The notes under the pieces were generated by a model that made no database searches, was not told the origin of the DNA, and worked only from the letters and a program-made list of their open reading frames with translations. A program made the translations under genes and the position numbers. DNA of 64,000 bases from Oscillospiraceae bacterium (GTDB taxonomy: Bacteria; Bacillota; Clostridia; Oscillospirales; Ruminococcaceae): assembly GCA_018110825.1 (NCBI GenBank), contig JAGBCL010000059.1, positions 25,367 through 89,366 of the forward strand, given 5' to 3'. Below are positions 2,284-45,365 of this stretch, in pieces; positions within the stretch are counted from its first letter, which is position 1; the number at the start of each line of letters is the position of its first letter.

Positions 2284-3753
2284 ATGCGAGCAGGATTGAT
2301 AATTCTTCTGTGCAGTATAGCAATTATGCTGTGCGGATGTACGGATATTGATGAGGAAATGCCGGTTGCTTCTTCTGTATATACATATATAGAACCGATG
2401 GAGAAGCTATATGTTCCCGAAACAAGTACAATATCTGAAGCGATTACGATTGCTGAAACCGAAACAGCAACCGTATCGACTACAGTTACAACTACGGAAA
2501 CAAGCGCTGAATCAAGCACTGTTAAGGAGACAGAAACTACAACCGAAACTACTACTGAAATTACTACCGAAACCACCACGGAAGTTGTTACTACAGTTTC
2601 TGAAACAGAAACAACTGTTGAAGTTACTACGATTACCGAACCTGAAACAATCACAGAAACAGTAGTTGTTTCTGAAACGGAAACGGTTTCCGAAAGCATT
2701 GCCGAGATTACCACGGGCCAGCTTTATGAGTCGGATTTCCGTGCAGATGAGGATTACGTCAAAATCTGCGGCAGAACTTACACCAACAGCAGCGGAACGG
2801 TTATTCTCTCAAATACATATTCTTCTGTTGAATTTGCTTTCTGCGGTACGCTCGCGGAGGTTACCCTCACAAGCGACTGCAAAAATTCAAAGGCAAGAGT
2901 TGGAATTTTCGTTAACGGAGAACGTGCAATAGATACAATGCTTACCGAAAAGACAACCACATTGAAGGTGTTTGAAAGCGACGTGCCTGAAAAGTGTGTT
3001 GTTTCGATTGTCAAGCTTTCCGAACAATCCCATTCCTATGTGGGCGTAAAAAATATTCACGCTGTTACGGAGTACGGAATAATTCCGACACCTGAGCGTG
3101 AACGCAAAATTGAGTTTATCGGCGACAGCATAACCTGCGGTTACGGAGTTGACGCACCAAACGAGCATTACGATTTTTCGACCGAGACCGAGGATGGTTC
3201 AAAGACATATGCGGCACTTATCGGCAAGGCTCTTGATGCTGATGTTAATATTGTTGCATGGAGCGGTATCGGTGCATATTCCTGCTACACAAGCGGCGAT
3301 GAGCCAAGTCAGTGGAAGCTTGTTTCGGGAATTTACGGTAACACCGACACGATGCACACAAGTCAAAAATGGGACTTTTCGACCTGGCAGCCTGACGTTG
3401 TGGTAATCAACATCGGTACCAACGATAACAGCTGGACAAAGGGAATTGACTCGCGGGTTGATACCTTCGGAAACGCTTACTACGATTTGATTTGTCAGGT
3501 GCGTGAGAAAAACCCCGACGCATATATAATCTGTTCCCTCGGCGCAATGGGCAGCAATCTTCTTCCCAAAATCAAGGAGCAGGTTGCGGCTTATTCCGCA
3601 GATACAGGTGACTACCGTGTTACAACTTTTGAATTTGCAAATCAGAACGGCTACAAGGACGGATACGGCGCTGACTACCACCCAAGCGCAAAGACTCACA
3701 AGAAAATGGCTGACAAGCTTGCACCGTTTATTGCCGAACTTATGAACTGGTAA
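2284..3753 (+). CDS. CE2-like SGNH acetyl (xylan) esterase lipoprotein
   Basis: A 489-residue exported esterase. It has a short lipoprotein signal ending in LCGC and a long linker of Thr/Glu/Val repeats (TTTETSAES, TTETTTEIT), roughly residues 45-145. A jelly-roll-like domain spans about 150-260, and a SGNH hydrolase domain runs from about 270 to the end. The catalytic Ser lies in FIGDSITCGYG, the oxyanion Asn in INIGTNDNSW, and the catalytic His in ADYHPSAKTH. The order of a beta-sandwich followed by SGNH, with the FIGDSITCGYG form, matches carbohydrate esterase family 2, which removes acetyl groups from xylan and related hemicelluloses. No dockerin is present, so it is probably cell-anchored through the lipid. 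It has its own promoter and a terminator shared with the convergent XRE gene. Confidence 0.85.
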   Translation: MRAGLIILLCSIAIMLCGCTDIDEEMPVASSVYTYIEPMEKLYVPETSTISEAITIAETETATVSTTVTTTETSAESSTVKETETTTETTTEITTETTTEVVTTVSETETTVEVTTITEPETITETVVVSETETVSESIAEITTGQLYESDFRADEDYVKICGRTYTNSSGTVILSNTYSSVEFAFCGTLAEVTLTSDCKNSKARVGIFVNGERAIDTMLTEKTTTLKVFESDVPEKCVVSIVKLSEQSHSYVGVKNIHAVTEYGIIPTPERERKIEFIGDSITCGYGVDAPNEHYDFSTETEDGSKTYAALIGKALDADVNIVAWSGIGAYSCYTSGDEPSQWKLVSGIYGNTDTMHTSQKWDFSTWQPDVVVINIGTNDNSWTKGIDSRVDTFGNAYYDLICQVREKNPDAYIICSLGAMGSNLLPKIKEQVAAYSADTGDYRVTTFEFANQNGYKDGYGADYHPSAKTHKKMADKLAPFIAELMNW

Positions 3754-4988: not shown

Positions 4989-7463
4989 TTAGCCCATTAC
5001 TGCAACAACTTCGTGAACGCCGCCGTCAAAGTTAGGAAGGATATTGCCTTCGATAGCCTTGCCGTCAACTGTGATGGACTTGATACCCTTGGAAACGTGG
5101 TCAGGGTTTTCAATCTTGATGTTGTATGTAGCACCGCGGTAGTAACGGGAAACTGTGTAGCCGTCCCAAGCCTTTGGAATGGATGGGTCAATCTTCAGAC
5201 CGTCATAGTCAGGAATGATACCGAGGATGTACTGGGAAATTGCAACGAAGTTCCAGGAAGCTGTACCTGTGAGCCAGCTGTTCTTAGCTTCGCCGAAACG
5301 CTTAGCGTCCTTACCTGCAACCATCTGTGCGTAAACGTATGGTTCAGTTCTGTGAAGTTTTTCGTCTTCCTGATAAGCAGGAGCAATTCTTGTATAGTAA
5401 TCGAACGCAACATCACCCATACCAGCGTAAGCAGCAGCACACATAATCCAAGCGTTGTTGTGGCAGAAGATACCGGCATTTTCCTTGTAACCGCCCGGGT
5501 ATGTGGAAATCTCGCCGTATTCTACAACGTACTTTGTAAATGCAGGGTTGTTGAGAACAAGACCGTGCTTTGTACCGAGATATTTGTCAATGCTTGCTAT
5601 AGTCTTTTCTGTGAATTCCTTACCGCCGATATCGGACATGATACAGAAGCCCTGTGGTTCGATGAAGATTTTACCTTCTTCATTTTCCTTGGAGCCAACC
5701 TTTCTTCCGTATGCGTCATAAGCACGGAGGAACCATTCGCCGTCCCAGCCGTAGTCGATAATAGCCTGCTTCATCTTGTCGATTTCAGCCTGTGCCTTAT
5801 CAGCTTCAGCGTTGTCGCCCATCTTGCGGCAGAGTGCAACGTATTCTGGTCCGATGTATGTGAACATACCGGCAATCATAACGGATTCAGCTGTTTCCTC
5901 GTTAAGTGGAGCACCTGTTTCAGGGTGAACTTCCTTAGCAATGTTGGAAGCTGTGTTCTGGAAGCTTTCGCCAGGAACACGGGAGAAGCAGTTGAGGTTG
6001 AGACAGTCATTCCAGTCAGCACGTCCGATAAGTGGGAGGCCGTGAGGGCCCTTATTGTCAACAACGTGATAGAAGCTTCTCTTGAGGTGGTCGAGGAGTG
6101 GCTGAGCAAGAGCAGGATCGTTCTTGTAGTCAACCATTTCCTTGAGGATATCGTAGTCGCCTGTTTCCTTGATGTAGGAAGCAGTGGAGAGAATCATCCA
6201 CAGTGGGTCATCGTTGAAGTTTGTACCAGCAGCGTCGTTACCCTTCTTGGTAAGTGGCTGGTACTGGTGGTAGTTACCGCCGTCCTCAAGCTGTGTAGCA
6301 GCGATATCGAGAATTCTTTCTCTTGCTCTTTCAGGAATCTGGTGAACAAAGCCGAGGATATCCTGGTTGGAGTCACGGAAGCCCATACCACGTCCGATAC
6401 CGCTTTCAAAGTAAGAAGCGGAACGGGACATATTAAATGTAACCATACACTGGTACTGGTTCCAGATGTTAACCTGTCTGTTGAGCTTTTCATCAGGGCA
6501 AGTAAGAGTATACTTGTCGAGGAGAGCATCCCAGGTCTGCTTGAGTTCTTCGAATGCAGCGTCAACCTTTTCAGCTGTATCGTACTTAGCCATCATCTCG
6601 TAAGCCTTGGACTTGTTCATTGTGCCGTCAGCGTTGAACTTTTCAGGATATGGATTTTCAACGTAGCCGAGCATGAATACGAGAGTCTTTTCTTCACCTG
6701 CTGCAAGAGTGATTTCCTTGTAGTGGGAAGCAATTGGGGACCAACCGTCAGCAACGGAGTTTTCAGGCTTGCCGTTGAATACTGTTACAGGGTCCTGGAA
6801 GTCGTGGTAGATATCGCCCATGAATGTTTCACGGTCAGTATCGTAGCCGTCAACTGTATCATTTACTGCATAGAAAGCAAAGTGGTTTCTTCTTTCCTTG
6901 TATTCAGTCTTGTGGTAGATAACAGCGCCGTTCTTTTCAAGTTCAACTTCACCTGTGTTGAAGTTTCTCTGGAAGTTAGCGGAGTCATCCTGAGCATCCC
7001 AGAGACACCATTCGATGAAGGAGAAGAGCTTGAAGGACTTAGCTTCGCCGCTTTCGTTCTTGAGAACAACCTTCTGGATTTCGCCTGTGAAATTCTGTGG
7101 TACAAAGAAAGTAACCTCAGCGGAAAGACCGTTCTTCTTACCGTTGATGATTGTGTAACCCATACCGTGACGGCACTTGTATTCGTCAAGGTCAGTCTTG
7201 ACAGGAGACCAGCCAGGGTTCCATACTGTACCGTTGTCGTTTATGTAGAAGTAACGTCCGCCAGCATCAGCAGGAACGTTGTTGTAACGATAGCGAGTGA
7301 TACGAGCGAGACGAGCGTCCTTATAGAAGTGGTAGCCGCCTGCTGTGTTGGAGATAAGTCCGAAGAAATCCTGTGTACCGAGGTAGTTGATCCAAGGGTA
7401 AGGAGTTTTCGGTGAGGTAATGACGTATTCCTTATTAGCGTCATCATAGAAACCGAATTTCAT
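4989..7463 (-). CDS. cbp: GH94 cellobiose phosphorylase
   Basis: An 824-residue cytoplasmic enzyme that splits cellobiose with phosphate into glucose 1-phosphate and glucose, saving ATP during cellulose use. The N terminus ([20 protein letters not shown]) starts the beta-sandwich domain. An (alpha/alpha)6 barrel follows from about residue 310, and the general-acid Asp is in the DWND motif at about 483-486 ([10 protein letters not shown]). The segment [14 protein letters not shown] (about 355-368) and the [13 protein letters not shown] segments near the C terminus are family hallmarks. The length fits cellobiose phosphorylase (about 810-830) rather than the longer cellodextrin phosphorylase. 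It stands alone with its own promoter, a LacI-type palindrome and a terminator, so it is probably induced by cellobiose or a related sugar. Upstream is an AGAAAGGAAG ribosome site. Confidence 0.93.
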
Positions 7464-10632: not shown

Positions 10633-12429
10633 TCAATTACCCTTAGGTGCAGCCGTGCTTACTGTTGCCCAGAGAAGGTCATGTTCAGCAGTGCCCTGTG
10701 GATATGTGCAGAGAACGTAAATGTACTGTGTACCATACTGTGATTTTACAACATATTCGTTCTTTGAAGTGTCAGGTGTTGGAGATGTGGAATACATAAT
10801 ATATGGTTCGTATATGCCTGTATCATTCTTGATTGCGTCATTTCTTTTGAGAATATCAGGATTTGTTGCAGGAACAACCATATATCTGTATGTACCATTC
10901 TTTGTATACATTACAACAGTTTCCTTTGTTGTGTCAATCTTTGGATATGTGGAGTAAACCTTGTAGTGGCTGTATACATTGTTGGAATTCATGTCATTAT
11001 CCTTGATCTGGTCAATTTTTGCCTGATCCCATTCAGAGTAAGGAACAAGCATGTATCTTGTTACTCTGTTTCCTGAAGAATCGTAAACTGTCCATGTTTC
11101 AACATAATCTGTCCAGCTGCTTGATGTAGGAGGTGAAACGTTGTAGATTGTCCAGTATGCATATGTATTGTTATACTGTGCAACTGCTGTGTTGAACTTA
11201 ACTACATCATAATCCTTAGGAAGAAGGATATATCTCTTTGTGCCGACATTGTAGTTGTAATACTGGCTTGTGGAATAGTTAGGATTTACATAGCTGTTAT
11301 TTGTGTTTGTGAATTCCTTATACTGGTCGCCGTTTGCAACTCTTGATGGAAGCTGGTCATAGATAGTATAGTAGGAATACTGATTGAACTTCTTGGCAAC
11401 GAGTGTATTTGTGTATGCAGGGTCATAGTTGGATGGAACAAGCATATAGTAATTCTTGTTGCCTGCCTGAACTGTGAGTACCTTATCGCCGGAAGCGAGA
11501 ACAGTACCAGGTCTTGATTCACTGATTTCATAATAGCCTGCCTGGCCTACAATAACCTTTACGTCAACATACTTCTTGACATTGTTCTTATCATAGAAGC
11601 GTAAGATTGTTTCGCCTGCCTTGACACCCTTGATAGTAAAGTCCTTATATCTGCCGGAAGTTGCACCCGGTGTTACAGTTGCAATTGTTGAATCTGAGAA
11701 CTGATAGCTGAGTCTGTTGTGGTCTGTGCAGAACATTTTAAGAACATAGGAAGCGTCTGTAGCCATATTTACAGTATTTGTGTAAGGGAGAATGGAAAGT
11801 GTAGTTTCTGTTGTTTCCTCTTCCATATCTTCTTCAAATACAGTAGGGTCGCCTACTTCTACATTGATGTACTTATAGCAAGTGGAAGGGTAATTTTTAA
11901 GGTAAACCTTAATCTTAGCTTCACCCTCGCCCTTAGCTGTAATCTTGAGCTGGATTTTGTTGCCGTCCCACTCTACAGGCTTAACCCATGAAGCAGTAGC
12001 AACCTTCTTGTTTGTGGAGCCTACAGTAAGACCGCTGTGGGAGCCCTTTACTGTCATTGTAACTATTTTTGTATCGCCCTTTTCATCAAGAGTAACATTA
12101 GATGAACTTGCAGTAATCTTTGCAGCTACAACCTTTACCTTACACTTGAGAGTTGTGTTGCTTACCTTAGCGTAGATATATGTTGTACCTACACCCTTAC
12201 CTACAACCTTACCGCTTGAAGAAACGGTAGCAACGGACTTGTCTCCGGTTGACCACTTAACAGTACTTGAAGTACCATTTACTTTGAGGGTAGTCTGATA
12301 ACCCTTTGTAACTGTAACCGATGATTTGCTGAGAGAAATCTTTGCAGCGCTTGAAGGGATAACCATCAGCGAGCAAACCATAAGAACTGCCAGGAAAACG
12401 CTGAGCAGCGACTTCATTGTTTTTGCCAT
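10633..12429 (-). CDS. Secreted Ig-like (Big_2) protein with five Tyr-rich repeat modules
   Basis: A 598-residue secreted protein. A Sec signal peptide (MAKTMKSLLSVFLAVLMVCS...SSAA) is cut near residue 29. Residues ~30-103 form a bacterial Ig-like group 2 domain (SSTVKWSTGDKSVATVSSSG, then GKGVGTTYIYAKV). Residues 104-192 and 210-295 look like two more beta-sandwich domains of the same type. From ~316 on there are five tandem modules of about 45-60 residues. They share the pattern Y-x-(L/V)-(L/V)-P-x-x-(Y/N/W), then (Y/H)-x-x-Y-x-(I/V)-Y-x-x-x-P, at about 316-361, 390-433, 445-496, 503-551 and a degenerate copy at 557-591. I do not recognise this module. There is no sortase motif, lipobox or dockerin, so the protein may be released or wall-associated. 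A UTR hairpin lies at 12463-12483. Confidence 0.8.
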   Translation of the reverse strand: MAKTMKSLLSVFLAVLMVCSLMVIPSSAAKISLSKSSVTVTKGYQTTLKVNGTSSTVKWSTGDKSVATVSSSGKVVGKGVGTTYIYAKVSNTTLKCKVKVVAAKITASSSNVTLDEKGDTKIVTMTVKGSHSGLTVGSTNKKVATASWVKPVEWDGNKIQLKITAKGEGEAKIKVYLKNYPSTCYKYINVEVGDPTVFEEDMEEETTETTLSILPYTNTVNMATDASYVLKMFCTDHNRLSYQFSDSTIATVTPGATSGRYKDFTIKGVKAGETILRFYDKNNVKKYVDVKVIVGQAGYYEISESRPGTVLASGDKVLTVQAGNKNYYMLVPSNYDPAYTNTLVAKKFNQYSYYTIYDQLPSRVANGDQYKEFTNTNNSYVNPNYSTSQYYNYNVGTKRYILLPKDYDVVKFNTAVAQYNNTYAYWTIYNVSPPTSSSWTDYVETWTVYDSSGNRVTRYMLVPYSEWDQAKIDQIKDNDMNSNNVYSHYKVYSTYPKIDTTKETVVMYTKNGTYRYMVVPATNPDILKRNDAIKNDTGIYEPYIMYSTSPTPDTSKNEYVVKSQYGTQYIYVLCTYPQGTAEHDLLWATVSTAAPKGN

Positions 12430-36588: not shown

Positions 36589-36954
36589 TTAGTTTTCGTC
36601 ATCTTCCTTCGTATCAATTGATTCAAGCATCTTTGCAATTTCTGCGGAATGCTCGATAGAGTTGTCTGCGATGAATTTCAGCTCAGGGCACTTTTTAAGG
36701 CGCAGCTTGTTGGAGATATGACGTCTTATCATACCCGATGCGCTTTCCAGACCCTTTACAGCAGCCTTTGAAGCCTTGAAGCCTGTAAGGTCGGATACAT
36801 AGACTTTACAATGGGAGCCGTCACCCGAAAGTTCTGTTCTTACAACAGAAACAAAGCCGCCGTTTACTCTCGGGTCCTTGATTTCCTCACGGATAAGAGC
36901 TGAAATTTCTCTCTTGATATCCTCGGACAAGCGTCCGTTTCTGAAATTAGGCAT
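36589..36954 (-). CDS. rbfA: Ribosome-binding factor A
   Basis: A 121-residue RbfA that helps 30S subunit maturation at low temperature. The protein begins MPNFRNGRLSEDIKREIS, and EIKDPRVNGGFVSVVRTELSGDGSHCKVYVSDL carries the KH-like fold. I choose the ATG at 36954 because it gives the normal family N terminus. An in-frame ATG at 36966 lies inside a hairpin, and a frame open to 37047 runs through the structured leader element and is not likely to be translated. The leader (36964-37076) supplies the AAAGGAG site; a hairpin between it and this ATG shortens the effective spacing to about 11 nt. Confidence 0.93.
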   Translation of the reverse strand: MPNFRNGRLSEDIKREISALIREEIKDPRVNGGFVSVVRTELSGDGSHCKVYVSDLTGFKASKAAVKGLESASGMIRRHISNKLRLKKCPELKFIADNSIEHSAEIAKMLESIDTKEDDEN

Positions 36955-36963
36955 AGTTATATT

Positions 36964-37076
36964 CATTTTCCCGACAGGGAAAATGCACTCCTTTCCGATG
37001 TTTTGTGGTTTTGCTTGCAAAATTTCGGACTTTAGTCCGAAAAACAAAACTCGGGTCTGAAATTTTATTTTCAGAC
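36964..37076 (-). other. structured leader element, copy 1 (candidate RNA module before rbfA)
   Basis: Read on the minus strand the element holds six parts. Helix 1 is a hairpin with arms GTCTGAAA (plus-strand 37055-37062 and 37069-37076). Next is an outer helix CCGAGTTTTGT / ACAAAACATCGG with one bulged A. It encloses helix 2, arms TTTCGGAC / GTCCGAAA, and helix 3, TTTTG-CAAG-CAAAA. Then come the site AAAGGAG and a 9-bp hairpin CATTTTCCC / GGGAAAATG (36964-36985). A second copy is at 45250-45365, with the same layout and several compensated base changes. Confidence 0.7.
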
Positions 37077-37104
37077 TTAACTCCTTTTATATTATATGGT
37101 ATAG

Positions 37105-37128
37105 GGTACCGCAGATTATTGCGGTACC
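37105..37128 (-). terminator. hairpin after infB (weak terminator or processing signal)
   Basis: A perfect 9-bp stem GGTACCGCA / TGCGGTACC lies 14 nt beyond the infB stop on the minus strand. The following bases (CTATACCATATAATATAAAAGG) lack a good U-tract, so partial termination or RNA processing is more likely than full stop. Confidence 0.45.
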
Positions 37129-45066: not shown

Positions 45067-45240
45067 TCAGTTGAATTCGTGCATTGCGTTTTCGGCAATG
45101 CGGTGCAGCTCTTCTTCGGTGCGGATATTACTGCTGTTTTTCATCACTGCACCACGGACATAATCGGGGAGCGATGTGAAATAAATTTTTGCAGTACTGC
45201 ACTCGTTCAGCAGGCTGTCGAGATTTTCATATTTACGCAT
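45067..45240 (-). CDS. 57-residue protein of unknown function
   Basis: A short acidic protein beginning MRKYENLDSLLNECSTAKIYFTSLPDYVRGAVMKNSSNIRTEEELHRIAENAM, all helical by eye. I choose the ATG at 45240. A GTG at 45252 is also in frame, but it is inside the hairpin of the upstream structured element. With the hairpin folded, the AAAGGAGG site is about 10 nt from this ATG. No domain is recognised. It follows the 95-residue unknown gene on the same strand and ends at a strong terminator. Confidence 0.65.
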   Translation of the reverse strand: MRKYENLDSLLNECSTAKIYFTSLPDYVRGAVMKNSSNIRTEEELHRIAENAMHEFN

Positions 45241-45249
45241 ATTTATATT

Positions 45250-45365
45250 CACGCTTCTTCAAAAGCGTGCCCTCCTTTTTCGATGTTTTGTGTGGTTTTG
45301 TTTGCAAAATTTGAAACGGCAGTTTCAAAAACACAAAACTCGTGTCTGAAAATTTATTTTCAGAC
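45250..45365 (-). other. structured leader element, copy 2
   Basis: Same layout as the copy at 36964-37076, in the same orientation. Helix 1 has arms GTCTGAAAA / TTTTCAGAC by plus-strand reading (45344-45352 and 45357-45365). The outer helix is CGAGTTTTGTG / CACAAAACATCG with the same single bulged A. Helix 2 is TTTGAAAC / GTTTCAAA and helix 3 TTTTG-CAAA-CAAAA. AAAGGAGG follows, then a 7-bp hairpin CACGCTT / AAGCGTG. Helix 2 and the last hairpin differ from copy 1 in sequence while keeping their pairing. Confidence 0.7.

Follow-up and report, generated by a model that had tools for sequence, protein, structure and literature searches.

A palindrome-rich repeat probably inserted between the Shine–Dalgarno sequence and start codon of rbfA, with a putative translation start of its own

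Genomic context of the element

The window, the 64,000-nt stretch of an Oscillospiraceae bacterium genome analysed here, contains two copies of a structured element, both located between genes and on the minus strand, at 36964–37076 (copy 1) and 45250–45365 (copy 2). Copy 1 is followed by rbfA, encoding ribosome-binding factor A (36589..36954, minus strand; PF02033, E 1.8e-31), and copy 2 by an ORF of 57 aa without a Pfam family (45067..45240, minus strand). The parts follow one order in both copies: a hairpin (H1), an outer helix with a bulged A around two hairpins (H2 and H3), the Shine–Dalgarno (SD) sequence AAAGGAG, a last hairpin (H4), 9 nt, and ATG. In copy 1, the left end of the element is H1 (GTCTGAAAATAAAATTTCAGAC, 37055..37076, minus strand, with the covariance-model match beginning 1 base earlier, at 37077), and is followed on the same strand by a three-way junction (36996..37053) whose outer helix carries its bulged A at 36999 and encloses H2 (37042-37023) and H3 (37022-37009), by the element-borne AAAGGAG (36988..36994), by H4 (CATTTTCCC/GGGAAAATG, 36964..36985), which lies between this new SD and the start codon, and by a 9-nt A/T-rich spacer (AATATAACT, 36955..36963). 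The corresponding minus-strand parts of copy 2 are H1 (45344..45365), a three-way junction with an outer helix longer by 2 bp (45281..45342), the SD AAAAAGGAGG (45271..45280), H4 (CACGCTT/AAGCGTG, 45250..45269), and the 9-nt spacer before the 57-aa ORF (45241-45249). A first-pass annotation made from the letters alone had described this shared layout, with its bulged A and AAAGGAG, and it is recovered both on the minus-strand sequence and in the predicted folds; likewise, the exchanges it had listed in helix 2 (TTTCGGAC/GTCCGAAA versus TTTGAAAC/GTTTCAAA) and in the last hairpin of the two copies are indeed changed yet paired.

Structurally, the predicted folds reach −45.4 kcal/mol for copy 1 (z −6.0) and −38.2 kcal/mol for copy 2 (z −4.2), with 0 of 200 shuffles as good in either case, and in both the described hairpins are present and the element's AAAGGAG is unpaired. 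The left end of copy 1 lies 3–4 nt past rbfA's own SD (AAAAGGAG, 37081..37088, minus strand; leader AAAAGGAGTTA). In the predicted fold of copy 1 this native SD stretch pairs with bases flanking the AUG on both sides, an arrangement that could hinder initiation. The left flank of copy 2 is GTAGGGA, which the SD word test used below does not count. Separately, a perfect inverted repeat (GGTACCGCA/TGCGGTACC, 37105-37128) lies between infB and the rbfA leader; it is kept in one relative (G017) and nearly kept in a second (G004), and is a possible attenuator or RNA processing site.

Size and spread of the family

The element is about 110–130 nt long, palindrome-rich and non-coding. Within the genome, a strict core pattern was found at 6 places (reversed control, 0), and an 89-nt piece used as the query of a DNA search gave 29 matches to E <= 10, of which the lowest-ranking are probably chance. 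A covariance model built from nine of the genome's own copies, whose E-values are rough, matched 29 places at E <= 1, with 25 passing E <= 0.001. The first-pass view of a repeated element with an internal ribosome site ahead of genes holds, the placement counts given below agreeing with it. The annotation had also proposed a covariance-model search of relatives, and this returned tens of copies in related genomes: 18 of 41 genomes had matches at E <= 0.001, all 18 being among the 21 of the genus, with none in the 20 of other genera, and a wider sample of the family under stricter filters was matched in 18 of 197 genomes and 14 of 125 genera. A strict pattern searched across 295 genomes of the order matched in the genome studied here alone, being too narrow to imply absence elsewhere. 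For further analysis we assembled 177 copies, none identical, comprising 28 of the 29 matches in the genome itself (the partial copy L062 was omitted), 126 from other genomes of the genus (where 162 matches at E <= 0.001 occur) and 23 from other genera (23 of 24 matches, in 23 loci).

A second class of copies (L245, L248, L250, L252, L253, L255, L265 and L270) has the same three-way junction without an SD; its H1 differs and is often richer in G/C (e.g. AAAACGAAAG), and several of its members adjoin GTAATGCGGAATT-like sequence, away from gene starts. Three copies from other genera (L346, L347 and L348) have G/C-rich junction versions (GGAGTTTTGC...GCAAAACATCC and similar), again without an SD, and such versions suggest an older core spread through the family.

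No Rfam family matched the element at its gathering score, in keeping with the earlier remark that no named family fits, and in the open-licence literature we recognised no paper naming this repeat family. The best sub-threshold Rfam match was GcvB, on the strand opposite to copy 1 and over its full length (36.4 bits against a threshold of 42; E 8.5e-07 in a 251-base search). This identity was set aside because copy 2 scores 13.9 bits and because GcvB is an sRNA of gamma-proteobacteria.

Empty sites in relatives

The closest named relatives by RbfA identity (96, 93 and 84%) are Oscillospiraceae bacterium MAGs from roe deer colon, goat cecum and water deer colon. In the closest relative the rbfA leader reads AAAGGAGTTATATATG, and in the genome studied here (G000) the element follows AAAGGAGTTA and ends at the ATG. 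The leader is CCTAAAGGAGTTATATATG in G017 (RbfA 96% identical) and CCTAAAGGAGTTTTATATG in G004 (93% identical), both without the element, and AAAAGGAGTTA, element, ATG in G000. Both relatives have AAAGGAGTT 4 nt upstream of the rbfA ATG, so that by this comparison the native SD of G000 is now separated from the rbfA start codon. Among the best 80 of 122 rbfA loci from named genomes, of which a few begin too near rbfA to reveal an element, there were 3 model matches at E <= 0.01 and 0 directly before rbfA.

Eight further sites have a readable empty partner, bringing those at which the alignments show insertion to nine. At L036 and L069 the order is GGAGGA, element, ATG, with the empty partner GGAGGAAATATG in G004; at L055 it is GTAA, element, ATG (empty partner GTAAAATG); at L083 and L289 it is AAAGGAAA or AAAGGATAA, element, GTG (empty partner AAAGGAAAAATAACGTG); and at L070, L073 and L292 it is GAGGAG, element, ATG (empty partner GAGGAGGAGCTTTATG). 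The other four are L296, L268, L325 and L310. Alignable sites that are less clean include L071, L072, L247, L277, L281, L291 and L302, and one site, L316, is a misfit, with the relative's own SD downstream of the junction. The partner of L084, L033, retains H1-like letters and may, judging from these, be a deletion remnant rather than an empty site. Copy 2 had no empty partner among the relatives' loci compared. Relatives, too, carry the element at some G000 sites (L040, L051 and L053), so that the family shows inheritance of copies in addition to turnover. At L036, both G000 and G001 have the element and G004 lacks it, which would fit either a single loss or insertion at that position twice.

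Placement relative to genes

An SD-like word lies at the right end of 142 of the 177 copies, a class that was assigned from a short motif close to where the model ends and includes a few look-alikes of the other class (L061, L249, L258 and L266). Among these 142 SD copies, an SD-like 4-mer occurs within 12 nt to the left of H1 in 117, against 35 in a control stretch 40–52 nt upstream, and an ORF start lies within 75 nt to the right in 132, the codon being ATG in 127. The 35 copies without the SD word had the left word in 9, the control word in 3 and a nearby start in 9, with no start nearby in 26. Broken down by origin, SD and start occur together in 20/28 of the genome's own copies, 101/126 from other genomes of the genus and 11/23 from other genera. 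Next to H1 the left flank consists largely of purines, and C is nearly absent from two positions. In 60 of the 142 copies an upstream frame open for at least 70 codons terminates near the left end, in the interval from −8 to +45 nt around it (56 of them by +22), and where the element lands at a gene overlap, stop codons in H1 would close that frame. At the readable sites, the element comes between a gene and its native SD and provides a second one.

The genes behind the element are of many kinds. Downstream proteins in G000, of which 20 of 22 listed were scanned, belong to Pfam families in 18 cases and share no common pathway; the families include RbfA, YidC-type 60KD_IMP, methionyl-tRNA synthetase, a sigma factor, Sua5, Sir2 and ABC transporters. 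A few copies depart from the usual placement: at L298 and L308 the element lies between tRNA-Gly and tRNA-Arg, antisense to both and next to TTAAAGGCGCA, without a gene start (in G004, locus L123, the same tRNA pair is 5 nt apart and the element is absent), and at L084 it follows CAGCAGGA at a gene end. Few as they are, these exceptions point more to a DNA target than to selection alone.

Taken together, we consider it probable that the segment upstream of rbfA is a copy of a dispersed, non-coding, MITE-like repeat that inserted between the SD and start codon of rbfA and brought a translation start with it. Weighing against this reading are the less clean sites and L316, the left flank of copy 2 and its missing empty partner, the copies that lack an SD word or H4, the pairing of the native SD around the AUG in copy 1, and two results given below, the moderate predicted openness of the element's SD and the outcome of the Y1 search. 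The first-pass annotation had offered three guesses (a regulatory RNA, a riboswitch-like leader or a domesticated mobile element), among which the last gains from the empty sites, from the lack of a common downstream pathway and from copies in Mu-like prophage DNA described below.

Pairing and covariation

Could the element instead be a cis-regulatory RNA, riboswitch-like or a protein-binding leader, that controls the translation of a set of genes through structure around the SD? Its mostly constant orientation to the gene and the SD and hairpin at its 3' end would suit such a role, as would its compensating changes. In the nine own copies, 98.6% of cells pair and both sides are changed in 11 of 32 pairs; of five measures applied to this alignment, one, the number of further pair types, was not above shuffles. 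In 98 copies from other genomes of the genus, 96.0% of cells pair, both sides are changed in 23 of 32 pairs, and, in an alignment that had been fitted to the structure, double-changed cells number 446 against a shuffled mean of 118, with a covariation score of 0.393 against 0.132 for shuffles and at most 0.077 with the partner slid. RNAalifold on the same alignment recovered 26 pairs, 20 of them double-changed, which make up H1 together with the greater part of the outer helix and portions of H2 and H3.

Of 3078 pair cells in the 98 copies, 35 are G-U and 25 A-C (H1 10/6, outer helix 11/9, H2 8/9, H3 6/1), and wobble intermediates are far fewer than double changes. G-U at about 1% of cells is low for a conserved RNA, even if G-U slightly exceeds A-C in H1, the outer helix and H3 (27 versus 16), which is a small point for a regulatory RNA. 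The arms are near-perfect Watson–Crick palindromes, which selection at the DNA level or template-switch copying would also give. Pairing is kept, by selection on RNA or otherwise, and because G-U pairs are rare despite the strong covariation, selection at the RNA level is unproven; of the earlier statement that the exchanges are strong evidence for a selected RNA structure, the compensating changes stand, and the selection on RNA was overstated.

Against regulation also speak the empty alleles in close relatives and the structure itself, with an H2 loop that is variable among copies and H2 or H3 replaced or missing in several. A riboswitch in particular is disfavoured because the downstream genes have no pathway in common, and the riboswitch-like leader of the first-pass annotation loses ground accordingly. 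On balance, we regard a cis-regulatory RNA as unlikely.

A proposed built-in translation start and its spacer hairpin

If the segment is an inserted repeat, as we favour, rbfA would now be translated from the element's SD, and the distance from that SD to the start codon becomes the point of interest. Counted on the sequence, the SD–AUG spacing is 33 nt in copy 1 and 30 nt in copy 2, and leaving out H4 reduces it to 11 and 10 nt, respectively; the end of H4 is 9 nt from the start codon in both. The same geometry recurs across the family. H4 is present in 91 of 129 usable copies, where the median SD–start spacing is 32 nt, or 11 nt without the hairpin, and the 38 of 129 copies without H4 have a median spacing of 11 nt. 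The commonest distance from H4 to the start is 9 nt (40/91). Of 141 windows behind the SD, 99 contain a perfect hairpin of at least 6 bp, where 20 rounds of shuffling gave a mean of 7.5; these hairpins have 35 different 5' arms. Presence of H4 varies slightly with the method and its base: 91/129 in the spacing count (129 of 132 SD copies with a start, 3 skipped), 89/131 in the right-end count (131 of 132) and 99/141 in the hairpin count (141 of 142). In the 129 copies, the predicted unpaired probability of the element's SD is moderate, with a median of only 0.60, exceeding 0.5 in 65% and 0.8 in 21%.

A start at the ATG or GTG that ends H4 was also considered and rejected: among the 51 copies with spacers other than 9 nt, it falls in frames 0, 1 and 2 in 8, 16 and 27 cases. 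Frame 0 is not preferred, and the downstream ATG is therefore taken as the start.

Functionally, we posit that H4 folds and thereby removes about 20–22 nt from the SD–AUG path, leaving about 11 nt, as in two genes of phage T4. A T4 review reports that structure between SD and AUG cuts the spacing of two genes, in gene 25 from 27 to 11 nt and in gene 38 from 22 to 5 nt (PMC3014915). The likeness, a spacing brought back into working range by a hairpin that separates SD and AUG, is here one of geometry only, and unlike the T4 leaders, which belong to single phage genes, the element is a dispersed inserted module. The family may persist because it brings with it the start signals of which its insertion would otherwise deprive a gene.

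Carriers and mode of movement

Some copies lie in phage DNA. One Mu-like prophage stretch (L355, G016:C26:13001-33000), with Mu transposase, GemA, Mor and Gp27 domains, contains three copies at 3308-3402, 5857-5952 and 10906-10994, and a viral contig (L362, IMGVR_UViG_3300013414_001150) has core matches at 2304-2362 and 3628-3687, both before short ORFs. By reading, some ORFs of this contig resemble those of the Mu-like stretch, as do phage-like ORFs beside a copy in G000 (L045), including the ORF after the copy. A mobilising enzyme, if one drives the movement, was not found: a search for Y1_Tnp (PF01797) was positive in 1 of 10 genus genomes and negative for G000, and a Y1 transposase was therefore rejected as general mover.

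The ends give few further clues. The empty and filled junctions at which a target-site duplication was looked for are diverged and A/T-rich, and the exact ends of the element are not fixed. By inspection, with the same proviso about the ends, no terminal inverted repeats were seen, the left end AGTYTGAAAA and right end GTCATAnnn being non-complementary, and in the predicted fold of copy 2 the ends are unpaired with each other. That the SD itself is the target duplication was rejected, since within a copy the SD word on the left is not the one on the right, while the right word varies little from copy to copy.

IS200/IS605 and REP-type elements have end hairpins, a short word beside the hairpin and no target duplication. 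An element of this type, moved by a Y1 (HUH) transposase with GGAG as its target word, would share with the present one a hairpin near each end, the purine word left of the left hairpin and the lack of a clear target duplication. It is nevertheless very unlikely here: Y1_Tnp occurs in 1 of the 10 genomes and the element in all 10, and there is no space for a guide word between target and H1.

Somewhat more credible, albeit still doubtful, is a leader cassette copied from gene to gene without any transposase, through recombination or template switching at SD and ATG microhomologies. The most frequent 9-nt distance between H4 and start, the SD-like word before 117 of 142 left ends, the outcome of the Y1 search and palindrome arms that change together, as template switching would give, all agree with this. 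Such copying would not readily account for insertions outside SD–AUG spacers, at the tRNA genes and at the gene end of L084, nor for an SD-less class with different ends and the same core.

For the inserted repeat, one mechanism can be put forward tentatively, namely that SD-like DNA (or the mRNA start region) is what its insertion machinery recognises, which would make any gene start a possible landing site, that its portable start (stop codons, SD and spacing hairpin) has evolved to make such landings harmless, and that the family is carried in part by Mu-like phages.

Comparison with known systems

The family occupies the few bases where insertion should harm most, before rbfA, a yidC-type gene and a methionyl-tRNA synthetase gene, and it may survive by replacing what its insertion breaks. 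If so, it would represent a natural swappable translation start from which gut bacteria could gain new 5' leaders, and with it one could ask whether a hairpin in the spacer is able to replace SD–AUG spacing beyond phage T4.

With bacterial MITEs such as RUP, ERIC and Correia, the element shares short, non-coding, dispersed copies and empty sites in relatives; unlike them, it has no terminal inverted repeats so far as its ends, which are not exactly fixed, allow. ERIC, Correia and other bacterial MITEs are of about 100–200 bp with strongly paired transcripts, and most of those listed in these sources have terminal repeats and TA ends (PMC2229807, PMC10969869). RUP has terminal inverted repeats and a target duplication (PMC2229807, table), which were not seen in the present element at its diverged junctions. 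The stems and terms Shine-Dalgarno, ribosom- and start codon have 0 occurrences in the text of a 2024 MITE review (PMC10969869). The BOX, RUP and SPRITE repeats of Streptococcus pneumoniae, similarly small, structured and dispersed, are considered parasites that move slowly; BOX has a modular build, and its boxC can hold an ORF's start codon, whereas no built-in SD or insertion between SD and AUG is described in the excerpts of this source, in which ribosom- has 0 occurrences (PMC3049150).

REP sequences tagged with GTAG or CGTC are likewise palindromic and extragenic, with a short tag beside the hairpin, and a known transposase is likewise lacking for the CGTC repeats; they differ as palindromes of 20–40 bp, the hairpin-side word here being SD-like, and clostridi- and ruminococc- have 0 occurrences in the text of the source (PMC3733652). 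By inspection, the element has no unpaired GTAG or CGTC end tag, its left flank being SD-like and its CGTC/CATC being paired in the outer helix, and the Y1 transposase of REP/RAYT systems (PF01797) is absent from G000 and present in 1 of 10 genomes. In kind, the element resembles BOX, RUP, ERIC and REP, with the SD cargo and the insertion between SD and AUG undescribed for these in the excerpts of PMC10969869, PMC3049150, PMC3733652 and PMC2229807. In position, the closest of the known repeats compared are the TAACTGA repeats of Beggiatoaceae, which, although they are 7-nt direct repeats of little SD character and most genes behind them are without an obvious SD, also lie directly before the start codons of many functionally unrelated genes (PMC4679880).
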